From contig NZ_CP043006.1 in the NCBI RefSeq assembly GCF_008086345.1, forward strand, positions 2,850,032 to 2,914,031: DNA of 64,000 nucleotides, given 5' to 3'. How positions within the stretch are numbered: the stretch's first letter is position 1; each line of letters opens with the position of its first letter. Below are positions 24,438 to 56,394 of this stretch, one piece after another. Position numbers and translations under genes: made by a program. Under the pieces are notes generated by a model. It was given only the letters and a program-made list of their open reading frames with translations. It did no database searches and was not told the origin of the DNA. The stretch is from Chitinophaga sp. XS-30 (GTDB taxonomy: Bacteria > Bacteroidota > Bacteroidia > Chitinophagales > Chitinophagaceae).

Positions 24438-25502
24438 ATGTTAAAGTCAATTTTATTGGGTGTTTTAATGGCCTGGACAATCGGGGCAGCCGCACAGGAT
24501 GCCTTGCTTGCACAGGGCAGCGCACCTGATCTGTATTTGGTGCATACGGTGAAGAAAGGGGAGACATGGTACAGTCTTGGCCGCGCATATGGGTTAAGCC
24601 CGAGAGAGATTGCCGCCCGGAACAATATGCAGATGGAGCAGGGGCTGGCCTTGGGAAAACAGATCACGATACCGCTGAACAGCAGTAATTTCATTCAGTC
24701 AAAGGATGCTTCCGCTGCTGAAGGCCTGCGTCCGGTGTATCACCACGTAGGGGATAAAGAAACATTATACCGTATTTCCATCCGATATGCCAGGGTGCCG
24801 CTGGATAATGTACGGCAGTGGAATAAATTTACCGGCGATGGTGTGCAGAAGGATGCGATGCTGATCGTAGGATATGTAAAGGGCACCAGCAATTCTATCG
24901 TACAGGTAACTCCCGCATCACAACCCGTTGCAGCCAATACGCCTGCTCCGCCGGCAACACCGCCGCCTGCTACTGTACCGGAACAGACGGTTACCACACC
25001 TCCGCCGGCACAAGAACCTGTTGCCACGCCTCCTCCTGCTCAGCAAACCGTTACAACAACTCCTCCTCCGGCACAGGAAACGCCTGCTGTGGTAAAACAG
25101 GACACACCCGCAACGGTAGTGGAAGAACAGAAACAGGCATCAGGCACCAGTCTTGGCCGTACACCGGCCATTCCGGAAGGTGGTTTTGAGTATATTTTTA
25201 TGCAGCAGACCAATAACGGACGGGATGTTACCACCGAAAAAGGTCCCGGCACCTGGTTCCGCAGCAATGCGATCGTAGGTTCAGGCAAATATTACGCATT
25301 GCATAATACCGCCCCGCGCGGCACCATCCTGAAGGTGACGAATCCGCTGACCGGCAGGGCGATCTACGCAAAGGTGCTGGATGCTATTCCTCAGCTGAAA
25401 GCCAATGCCAATCTCATTATCAAGCTGAGCGATGCCGCACAGGATGCGCTGGGCATCAGAGAGGGAAGGTTTTATTGCGAGCTCAGCTACGACGAACAAT
25501 AA
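24438..25502 (+). CDS. Exported LysM protein with a C-terminal RlpA-like domain
   Basis: A 354-residue exported protein with a signal peptide (cleavage near GAAAQ). It has two LysM peptidoglycan-binding modules (residues about 34-80, VKKGETWYSLGRAYGLSPRE, and about 96-145, DKETLYRISIRYARVPLDNV). A Pro/Thr/Ala-rich linker with repeated PPPAQ-E/P/T-V-T/A units (about 155-230) follows. The C-terminal double-psi beta-barrel region (about 255-350) contains GTWFRSNAIVGSGKYYALHN and RGTILKVTNPLTGRAIYAKV. The last domain resembles RlpA lytic transglycosylases, though I do not see the catalytic Asp with certainty. It may bind or remodel cell wall. It is a single gene followed by a long hairpin. Confidence 0.85.
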   Translation: MLKSILLGVLMAWTIGAAAQDALLAQGSAPDLYLVHTVKKGETWYSLGRAYGLSPREIAARNNMQMEQGLALGKQITIPLNSSNFIQSKDASAAEGLRPVYHHVGDKETLYRISIRYARVPLDNVRQWNKFTGDGVQKDAMLIVGYVKGTSNSIVQVTPASQPVAANTPAPPATPPPATVPEQTVTTPPPAQEPVATPPPAQQTVTTTPPPAQETPAVVKQDTPATVVEEQKQASGTSLGRTPAIPEGGFEYIFMQQTNNGRDVTTEKGPGTWFRSNAIVGSGKYYALHNTAPRGTILKVTNPLTGRAIYAKVLDAIPQLKANANLIIKLSDAAQDALGIREGRFYCELSYDEQ

Positions 25503-25521: not shown

Positions 25522-25562
25522 TAGCAAGCGGGTGTGCCGGATCACGGCACACCCGCTTGCTA
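25522..25562. terminator. Eighteen-base-pair perfect hairpin between convergent genes
   Basis: Bases 25522-25539 pair perfectly with 25545-25562 around loop GATCA, between the LysM gene (+) and fmt (-). There is no T-run on the plus strand. On the minus strand the hairpin is followed by GTCTTTTATG. It probably ends transcription from both sides. Confidence 0.6.
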
Positions 25563-25643: not shown

Positions 25644-25711
25644 ATTACCCCTGGAACCGGTATCCCACCTCCATTTTTTTGCCTTCCAGTTGGAGGGATA
25701 GCGCACCTGAA
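25644..25711 (-). repeat. fmt: Decayed tandem copy of the 3' end of fmt
   Basis: This 68-base block repeats the last about 84 bases of fmt (25712-25795) and abuts it directly. Read on the minus strand it could spell LQLEGKKMEVGYRFQG and a stop, against LQLEGKKKMEVDEFLRGYRFQG in the gene. It lacks the DEFLR codons and has small indels near its start that put it out of frame with fmt. It lies beyond the fmt stop codon and is not translated as part of fmt. Confidence 0.8.
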
Positions 25712-25712
25712 A

Positions 25713-26633
25713 TTACCCCTGAAACCGGTACCCCCGCAGGAACTCGTCCACTTCCATTTTCTTTTTCCCTTCCAGTTGCAGGGATAGTACCTGAATATAT
25801 CCACCCGGCGCCGCGAATTTCAGAAACGTCTTCTGGTCGGTATGCACAGAGCCGGCAGGATGAGTATGCGGGGCGGTTTCTTTCGCCGCTTTGAATATCT
25901 TGAGCGTTTTATCCTGCAGATGCGTAAATGCGGTGGGATAGGGACTTAGCCCGCGAATGAGATTGTAAATATTGTCCAGCGGCGCTTCCCAGTTAATGAG
26001 GCAATGTTCTTTGAAGATCTTTGGCGCATGTTTCAACGCCGATGCGGGAATATCCGCCTGCGGCATTTCCGGGGCTTCGCCTGCGGCGATGGCCTTGACG
26101 GTTTTGATCAGCAGGCCCGCTCCGGTGACGCGCAAGACCTCATAAAGCTCCCCGGCCGTCTGGTCTTCCGGAATATCCACGGCTTCCGAAAACATGATAT
26201 TCCCGGTATCGATCTCATGCTGCAGTTTGAAGGTGGTGACACCGGATTGCCGTTCCCCGTTGATGATGGCCCAGTTGATGGGTGCGGCGCCACGGTACTG
26301 CGGCAGCAGCGAAGCGTGTACATTGATGGTGCCGCGCGGCGGCATGCTCCATACCACTTCCGGCAGCATGCGGAAGGCCACCACCACCTGCAGGTCTGCC
26401 TGGTACGACCGCAGGGTATCCAGGAATGCGGGGTCTTTCAGTTTCAGCGGCTGGAGGACCGGGATATTTTTACTGACCGCATAGGCTTTCACCGCGCTTT
26501 GCTGCAATTGCAGCCCCCGGCCTGCGGGTTTGTCCGGCGCAGTAACCACCGCTGCTACATCATATCCCTCTTTCACCAGCGCGTCCAGTGAAGTAACCGC
26601 AAAATCGGGCGTACCCATGAAAATGATCCTCAT
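25713..26633 (-). CDS. fmt: Methionyl-tRNA formyltransferase
   Basis: Formylates initiator Met-tRNA with 10-formyl-tetrahydrofolate. It has 306 residues. Marks are MRIIFMGTPDFAVTSLDAL at the N-terminus, VVTAPDKPAGRGLQL, the catalytic region NVHASLLPQYRGAAPINWAI (Asn, His) with TTFKLQHEIDTGNIM, and a C-terminal OB-like domain with NLIRGLSPYPTAF. The C-terminal 25 or so codons are present a second time, in decayed form, just past the stop codon. The next gene on the same strand (NamZ-like) ends 38 bases upstream. Confidence 0.96.
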   Translation of the reverse strand: MRIIFMGTPDFAVTSLDALVKEGYDVAAVVTAPDKPAGRGLQLQQSAVKAYAVSKNIPVLQPLKLKDPAFLDTLRSYQADLQVVVAFRMLPEVVWSMPPRGTINVHASLLPQYRGAAPINWAIINGERQSGVTTFKLQHEIDTGNIMFSEAVDIPEDQTAGELYEVLRVTGAGLLIKTVKAIAAGEAPEMPQADIPASALKHAPKIFKEHCLINWEAPLDNIYNLIRGLSPYPTAFTHLQDKTLKIFKAAKETAPHTHPAGSVHTDQKTFLKFAAPGGYIQVLSLQLEGKKKMEVDEFLRGYRFQG

Positions 26634-33000: not shown

Positions 33001-33597
33001 ATGGAAGTTTATTATACGATTGAGAAGAAAGCAGTAGCGGAGTTCAAGGACAGGGGCAGCAAATTCCTCGCATATGCCTACCCCGTAAAATCCACCGAAC
33101 AGGTAAAAGAGTGCCTGCAGGACGTGAAGAAAGAACACCCCAAAGCCACCCACCACTGTTATGCCTACCGGCTCGGGACAGACGGGCTGCAATTTCGCGC
33201 TGTGGACGACGGAGAACCTTCCGGTTCCGCCGGTAAGCCCATTCTCGGGCAGATCGACAGCAAACAGCTGACGGACGTGCTGGTAGTGGTGGTCAGGTAT
33301 TTCGGCGGTACGCTGTTAGGCGTTCCCGGCCTCATCAATGCCTACAAGATGTCAGCCGCGCTGGTGCTACAACTGATCCCGGCCGTGCAGAAAAATGTAG
33401 AGGCCAGGTACCGGCTGACATTTGACTATACCATATTGAATGATGTGATGATGGTGGTGAAGCAGCACAACTGCACCGTGCTGTCACAGGATATACAGCT
33501 GTTCTGCAGTATGGAAATTGGTATTCCCAAAGCCAGCCTGGACCTTTGCCTGCTGCGGCTGAAAGATATCTATAACCTGGAGATCAGGGCATTATAG
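33001..33597 (+). CDS. YigZ/IMPACT-family protein
   Basis: A 198-residue cytoplasmic protein of the IMPACT (UPF0029) family, starting 2 bases after ribD, so probably co-transcribed. Signature: KKEHPKATHHCYAYRLG, then DGEPSGSAGKPILGQI and VVVVRYFGGTLLGVPGLINAYK. A shorter C-terminal DUF1949-like region follows. Members bind nucleic acids or act near the ribosome; the precise role is unknown. Repeats described separately begin at its stop codon. Confidence 0.92.
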   Translation: MEVYYTIEKKAVAEFKDRGSKFLAYAYPVKSTEQVKECLQDVKKEHPKATHHCYAYRLGTDGLQFRAVDDGEPSGSAGKPILGQIDSKQLTDVLVVVVRYFGGTLLGVPGLINAYKMSAALVLQLIPAVQKNVEARYRLTFDYTILNDVMMVVKQHNCTVLSQDIQLFCSMEIGIPKASLDLCLLRLKDIYNLEIRAL

Positions 33598-33760
33598 CCC
33601 CGCAGGGCCTTTTACCTCGGCGGCGCCTCGGGAATTGAGCAACAATGCTGTCGTTGGCCTGCAGGGCCTTTTTTGATCCCGGCGGCGCCTCGGGAGTTGA
33701 ACAACAATGGCCCTCCTTGGCCCTACAAGGCCTTTTTGATCTCGGCCAGCGATACCCCGA
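33596..33760 (-). repeat. Three tandem diverged copies of the 3' end of the DUF6786-like gene
   Basis: On the minus strand the gene ends GCCGAGATCAAAAAGGCC followed by TTGTAG. Two further copies lie beyond the stop codon, one around 33718-33656 and one around 33656-33596. They keep GCCGGGATCAAAAAAGGCC and GCCGAGGTAAAAGGCC, each with GGCGCCTCGGGA-type sequence between. The period is about 60 bases. The outer two copies are more like each other than like the coding copy. Confidence 0.75.
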
Positions 33761-55494: not shown

Positions 55495-56394
55495 GGACCT
55501 GCCAGGAATGGCAAGTCCGGAAGCACAACTAGAAAATGCTATTATTATAATTAAAACAATGGTTCGTTATCACGGCCCAGTGGTGGTATTTGAAGGAGTG
55601 CCGATCCCTGCCGCCAGGGATGACGATTTTCATCCGGACATTTCCTTTAATGTCATCGGCATTCCCGCCGATCCTTACCGCCAGGGATGACAGTTTTTCA
55701 TAAGTATAGGGATGAACAGGTTCGACTAAAGACCCGCCATGAATAGCAAGTCCGAATGTTCGTCAATCAAAATCTCGCATATGCTCCTGTATCTTATTGC
55801 TTGTTTCCAGACTTCACACATCATATTAGACAGGGACCTGCCATGAATAACAAGTCCGGGCGTTCGCTAGTCAAAGTTGCATATACGCTGCCTGTTTGTA
55901 TTCCAAAACCATACACTTTATATCTTGTAAGACCTGCCCATGAGTGGCAAGCCTGATGTTCGCCAGCCGGAATGTCTCGTGCGCTGCCTGTTTTTATTCA
56001 AGCCATCCACCCACATCAGATAAGACCCACCCATGATTGGCAAATCTGATGTTCGCCAGCCGGAATTTCTCGTGCGCTGCCTGTTTTTATTCAAGCCATC
56101 CACCCACATCAGACAAGACCCACCCATGAGTGGCAAGCCTGATGTTCGCCAGCCGGAATTTCCCTCACACTGCCTGTTTTTTTTCAAATCATCCACGCCA
56201 TATATAAGACCCGCCATGAATAGCAAGTCCGTGTTTTTCAAGGGTTCATTTACGTTATATACCCATTAATCTTTTCATTTTGGTTAACAGGAACCCGCCA
56301 TGAATGGCAAGTCCGTTAAAAAGTTGTAAACGTTTGCAACACCCAAAATCCGGAGTCGAAATCTTTAAATGGACCTGCCAGGAATGGCTGGTCC
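55495..56394 (-). repeat. Array of nine diverged hairpin repeats
   Basis: Elements start near 55495, 55731, 55834, 55931, 56024, 56117, 56208, 56291 and 56371, with spacing mostly 80-102 bases (93 for the three central units). The plus-strand consensus is GACCYGCCATGAATGGCAAGTC. As minus-strand RNA the arms pair over 9-10 bp with U-G pairs at the variable sites; on the plus strand the same sites would be C-A mismatches. Spacers of the central units are also alike (GATGTTCGCCAGCCGGAATT and CTGCCTGTTTTTATTC). The 55495 element is followed on the minus strand by TTTTTCTTCC, as in a terminator. Confidence 0.8.
55601..55701. repeat. Direct repeat inside the hairpin region
   Basis: CCGATCCCTGCCGCCAGGG and following bases to TTTTCAT (55601-55633) recur at 55668-55701 with few changes, period 67. 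The first copy holds a small perfect hairpin (ATCCCTG-CCGC-CAGGGAT). It is unrelated in sequence to the nine-hairpin consensus. Confidence 0.65.

Follow-up and report, generated by a model that had tools for sequence, protein, structure and literature searches.

A decayed tandem copy of the 3' end of fmt in Chitinophaga sp. XS-30 and the genomic background of short tandem duplications

The closest described relatives of the arrangement analysed here are the close direct repeats and short tandem duplications of bacterial genomes, which in the sections of the literature considered here are short, arranged in tandem, and denser in non-coding DNA. The duplication at the fmt gene resembles them, and it differs from generic close repeats in that its unit happens to contain a stop codon and 27 sense codons. 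Where small variable segments have short repeats on either side, slippage between the repeats is regarded as likely (PMC2884548, in the section considered), and the sections considered of that paper and of PMC4060949 both agree with reading the fmt case as a short tandem duplication. The scars of homology-facilitated illegitimate recombination (PMC3240628, likewise in the section considered) are alike in that such a process could leave part of the resident gene's end next to the incoming end. Unlike those scars, as far as that section describes them, three other pairs in the genome look like plain tandem duplications, and the fmt case carries no donor-allele or junction evidence. A literature search, judged from titles and the openings of abstracts, did not recognise this particular 3'-end arrangement.

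We analysed a stretch of 64,000 nucleotides of Chitinophaga sp. XS-30 (NCBI RefSeq assembly GCF_008086345.1, contig NZ_CP043006.1, positions 2,850,032 to 2,914,031), here called the window. The fmt case is in all probability a one-off, neutral short tandem duplication with a decayed downstream copy, and its recurrence at other genes most plausibly reflects a general background of such duplications in this genome.

The duplicated 3' end of fmt

The features of the locus are the following, in window coordinates.

25713..26633, minus strand: fmt, methionyl-tRNA formyltransferase, intact, 306 aa (open reading frame with PF00551, Formyl_trans_N, and PF02911, Formyl_trans_C)
25713..25796, minus strand: copy 1, the duplicated unit, the last 84 nt of fmt (28 codons including the stop; alignment)
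25645..25712, minus strand: copy 2, a decayed 68-nt tandem copy abutting the fmt stop (alignment)
25522..25562, no strand: 18-bp perfect inverted repeat with arms 5 nt apart (sequence)
24438..25502, plus strand: LysM-domain gene, convergent to fmt and ending 210 bp from the fmt stop (open reading frame, Pfam)

The two copies (25796..25713 and 25712..25645) lie on the same strand with nothing between them and align over 65 columns locally or 66 globally. They differ by 6 internal substitutions (the global alignment adds a seventh, at the unit's first base), which amounts to about 9% of aligned columns, indels extra; relative to copy 1, copy 2 carries an insertion of 2 nt and two deletions, of 3 and 15 nt. 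Each of the 6 internal substitutions is synonymous and falls at a third codon position, and both deletions are multiples of three. Read past the 2-nt insertion, copy 2 spells LSLQLEGKKMEVGYRFQG followed by a stop, so that the original prediction of a copy with indels and without the DEFLR codons was correct. The local alignment score of the pair is 40.6, compared with a maximum of 21.2 in 5000 first-order Markov simulations, and a shuffle control with one shuffle for each of the 55 open reading frames called in the window gave a maximum of 15. The duplication of the fmt 3' end is real and far above chance, as had been proposed from the sequence, with the proposed positions shifted by about one base. 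The fmt pair was missing from the matches listed by self-BLAST of the window at E of 1 or better, probably owing to the gaps. By eye, few bases are similar at the breakpoint junction (TAT/ATTCAGG vs TAA/TTTCAGG), in a copy that has already decayed.

The inverted repeat probably serves as a terminator common to the convergent fmt and LysM genes. The LysM gene is found near fmt at 26 of 29 same-genus loci (L003-L031) and at 33 of 109 relative loci overall, with gaps between the two genes of 0 to 280 bp, so the 210-bp gap alone is not unusual. RNA folding over both fmt copies revealed nothing unusual (z +0.94), and a structured RNA across them is rejected.

The comparison with relatives covered 29 same-genus loci, the best among 78 genomes, and 80 loci from other genomes, the best among 591 matches. 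The best relative found has 78% amino acid identity, and the best-matching named records belong to Chitinophaga species. The motif FLRG is present near the protein end in 29 of 29 same-genus homologues; in the 80 further homologues it is exact in 55 and present as a variant (for example FLKG or LLRG) in 25. Copy 2 lacks this motif that the relatives keep, and therefore copy 2 is the decayed one; an older functional fmt end in copy 2 is rejected for the same reason. The fmt reading frame still stops at copy 1, with a tail conserved as in the relatives, and the new protein end that had been suggested is not seen. Alignment with relatives, proposed as a check on the origin of the downstream block, returned no 3'-end copy scoring at least 20 in the 109 relative loci (maximum 19.8, at L182), of which L202 had too little downstream sequence to be scored and L003 and L172 appear to represent a single locus. 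Three loci (L182, L240 and L244) score 18.2 to 19.8, and the 29 same-genus loci have no copy after the gene (maximum score 12).

Substitution patterns in four stop-spanning pairs

Three further convincing reading frames with a duplicated 3' end occur in the scanned part of the genome; from their appearance we take them to be a GH43 enzyme, a TolC-like protein and an asparaginase. Among the four pairs, that of the GH43-like frame has diverged least.

G000:C1 2151327-2151489: 81-nt clean tandem duplication spanning the stop of the 339-aa GH43-like reading frame (scan and alignment)

The right breakpoint lies at the stop in fmt and 29 nt past it in the GH43-like case, where post-stop sequence is itself duplicated. 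In the TolC-like and asparaginase-like cases it lies no more than about 3 and 6 nt, respectively, beyond the stop, judged from the alignment starts. No fixed breakpoint relative to the stop was found in these four cases. Pooled over the four pairs, 14 of 24 substitutions are at third codon positions, near the two thirds calculated for a coding copy drifting synonymously together with a free other copy.

The fmt pair by itself is more orderly than plain decay would suggest, with its 6 of 6 synonymous substitutions and its deletions in multiples of three. The all-third-position pattern leaves some room for an origin by allele replacement, in which an incoming fmt allele would have joined by homology on its 5' side and illegitimately past the stop, the resident 3' end surviving as copy 2 and later losing 18 nt. 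Exclusively synonymous differences are what two functional alleles would show, and homology-facilitated illegitimate recombination is a described process (PMC3240628, in the section considered). Against this, the three other pairs are mixed in codon position (8 of 18 substitutions at third positions), the GH43-like duplication of post-stop sequence follows a plain tandem pattern, and equal drift of both copies gives 6 of 6 third positions with a probability of about 0.09. The motif FLRG, exact or variant in 29/29 and 80/80 homologues, is missing from copy 2, so the deletions would have to be later than any coding life of that copy. Altogether, we consider allele replacement at fmt unlikely. 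Marginally less likely again is the broader proposition that copy 2 is a fossil of a replaced fmt allele and that gene-end duplications in the genus mark past gene replacements.

Gene 3' ends and the intergenic background

The original prediction raised the possibility of a recurring process, pointing to 3'-end duplication or terminator-adjacent slippage and to two other genes in the window. We scanned 2.06 Mb including the window (33% of the 6.18-Mb genome), comparing the last 150 coding bases of each reading frame with the next 250 by gapped alignment; the frames are uncurated calls from a greedy length rule, and those within 400 bases of a segment end were excluded. Scores of at least 26 were reached at 5 of 1512 3' ends (one of them, a 122-aa frame at 4891192, is doubtful, leaving four convincing cases), at none of 1512 5' ends, at 3 of 975 internal positions and in none of five permuted sets. 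In the first 1.26 Mb, with shorter frames admitted, the corresponding counts were 6/985 (two of the six being short frames of 101 and 108 aa within repeat clusters, judged not to be genes), 0/985 and 0/614, with 1/4917 in permuted sequence. On its own, this gene-end scan looks like a 3'-end effect.

A separate observation in the window, at 55729-56254, is a tandem array whose period is about 93 bp, probably a non-coding repeat cluster, in which the caller reads a 108-aa frame at 55918-56241.

A different picture emerges when close direct repeats are counted regardless of location. The same 2.06 Mb, of which 237 kb is non-coding and about 1.82 Mb coding, contains 24 repeats that are wholly non-coding, 13 internal to genes (11 of the 13 spacings being divisible by 3), 4 stop-spanning and 2 start-spanning. 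The GH43-like repeat overlaps both a stop and a called start and was tallied as stop-spanning. Ten palindromic arrays (5 non-coding, 5 start-spanning) were removed beforehand, the counts with them being 29 and 7; the filter was our own pattern, and related sites may persist among the 24. Random placement of units of the same sizes gave 34011 non-coding, 10658 stop-spanning and 11583 start-spanning positions, and when scaled to the 24 non-coding repeats it predicts about 7.5 stop-spanning and 8.2 start-spanning cases. These values count adjacent non-coding clusters separately; if they are merged by hand, the 24 become about 20 and the expectation drops to about 6.3. It would fall as well if some of the 24 are functional sites. 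The 4 stop-spanning repeats are thus no excess over the non-coding background in this third of the genome. Start-spanning repeats look depleted (2 compared with about 8.2), and hypothetical selection against altered leaders could explain why the gapped-alignment scans show more stop- than start-spanning cases. In 400 kb from each of two relatives, stop-spanning and non-coding repeats number 2 and 7 (G028) and 1 and 2 (G038), a pooled ratio of 3:9, or 0.33, compared with 0.31 in the placement model.

These counts bear on a recurrent process aimed at gene 3' ends, whether slippage linked to terminators or a mobile element that exploits such ends. The scan cases, with none in permuted sets and none at 5' ends, speak in its favour; the lack of any excess of stop-spanning repeats over random placement, the varied breakpoints, the abundance of close tandem repeats in plain intergenic DNA, and the few reading frames scoring at least 26 in stretches of the two relatives (0 of 281 in G028, 1 of 319 in G038) speak against it. 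A process specific to 3' ends is accordingly rejected as very improbable: similar events do recur, and slippage is a fair mechanism for them, without being special to gene ends.

The two window genes said to share the fmt arrangement do so in part. The last 12 nt of the DUF4142 gene are repeated exactly with a 15-nt period, and among 1512 reading frames no other has an exact recurrence of its last 12 nt within 120 nt (mean of 0.0 in permuted sets). Random intergenic 12-mers recur in this way in 69 of 20170 trials, or about 5 per 1512, so the 15-nt microduplication is real and no denser than in plain intergenic DNA. Downstream of the DUF6786 gene lies the following feature.

33599-33722: two 62-nt tandem units, wholly non-coding, between convergent genes ending at 33597 and 33723

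A weaker third likeness to these units runs into the gene end with a score of 19.6, a value reached in 4 of 5000 simulations, and scores from 18 to just under 20 occur in 10 of 1512 reading frames compared with about 6.4 per permuted set. The link of this repeat to the gene end is weak.

The control scan also brought to light, outside the window and unrelated to the fmt duplication, arrays of units of about 45 bp, with 1 to 4 or more units at a site and the 23-bp palindrome CRGATGAAATAACATTCCATCYG in every unit. They lie directly upstream of genes and for the most part in register with the start codon of the gene. Examples on G000:C1 are at 2953711-2953814, 1436422-1436577, 2276500-2276640 and 4216059-4216182, and others are at L252 and L259. 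With at most one mismatch the palindrome has 49 strand-matches in the genome, a few sites matching on both strands, and the reversed control has 0; no match occurs in the window even with 3 mismatches allowed. It is absent from 73 of the 79 genus genomes searched, and 3 exact copies occur in one genome (G025). The ATG of the gene follows the palindrome ATG at a distance of one or two units (44-46 or 92/95 nt) in 10 of 11 arrays, the exception being 4164225 with a spacing of 72 nt; this count covers arrays with a downstream start in the sequence, opposite-strand rows and the lone match at 1094137 having been dropped. The ATG of the gene stands mostly in the context CRG-ATG-AAA.

The palindrome arms mostly covary (12 units with CAGATG/CATCTG, 6 with CGGATG/CATCCG, 4 array units breaking one pair) in a comparison that leans towards pairing by requiring 5 of 6 complementary bases. 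Of the 19 units that contain ATGAAA, 14 continue with TAA or TAG, giving a two-codon frame. The remaining five continue with CGA, CAC or TAC, so the palindrome seems to be the conserved part, not the mini-frame. One array leader folds with the gene start paired to an upstream arm (z -2.9). The arrays are possibly operator arrays or start-occluding RNA leaders.

Proposed origin and meaning

Integrating elements are able to recreate the 3' end of their target gene, and an element that entered the fmt 3' end and was later lost could in principle have left an attachment-site remnant; the abutting copies, with nothing between them, and the retained convergent LysM neighbour 210 bp away speak against this, and such a remnant is rejected as extremely improbable.

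A one-off tandem duplication at fmt would have begun with head-to-tail copying of the 84 nt that end with the stop codon; replication slippage or illegitimate recombination at short homology is the most likely mechanism. Because copy 1 holds the complete C-terminal codons and the stop, the fmt protein would have stayed unchanged, and the event would have been nearly neutral and so retained. Comparison with copy 1 and with the relatives shows that copy 2, now non-coding, has since shed 15 and 3 nt, acquired 2 nt and drifted, while copy 1 presumably drifted at synonymous sites. Such duplications strike throughout the genome and survive in non-coding DNA, across gene ends, and within genes mostly if the reading frame is kept.

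The fmt duplication alone is of little importance. Stop-spanning tandem duplications are an expected background in this genome, and they should be judged against how dense tandem repeats are in plain intergenic DNA, not against permuted gene ends alone.
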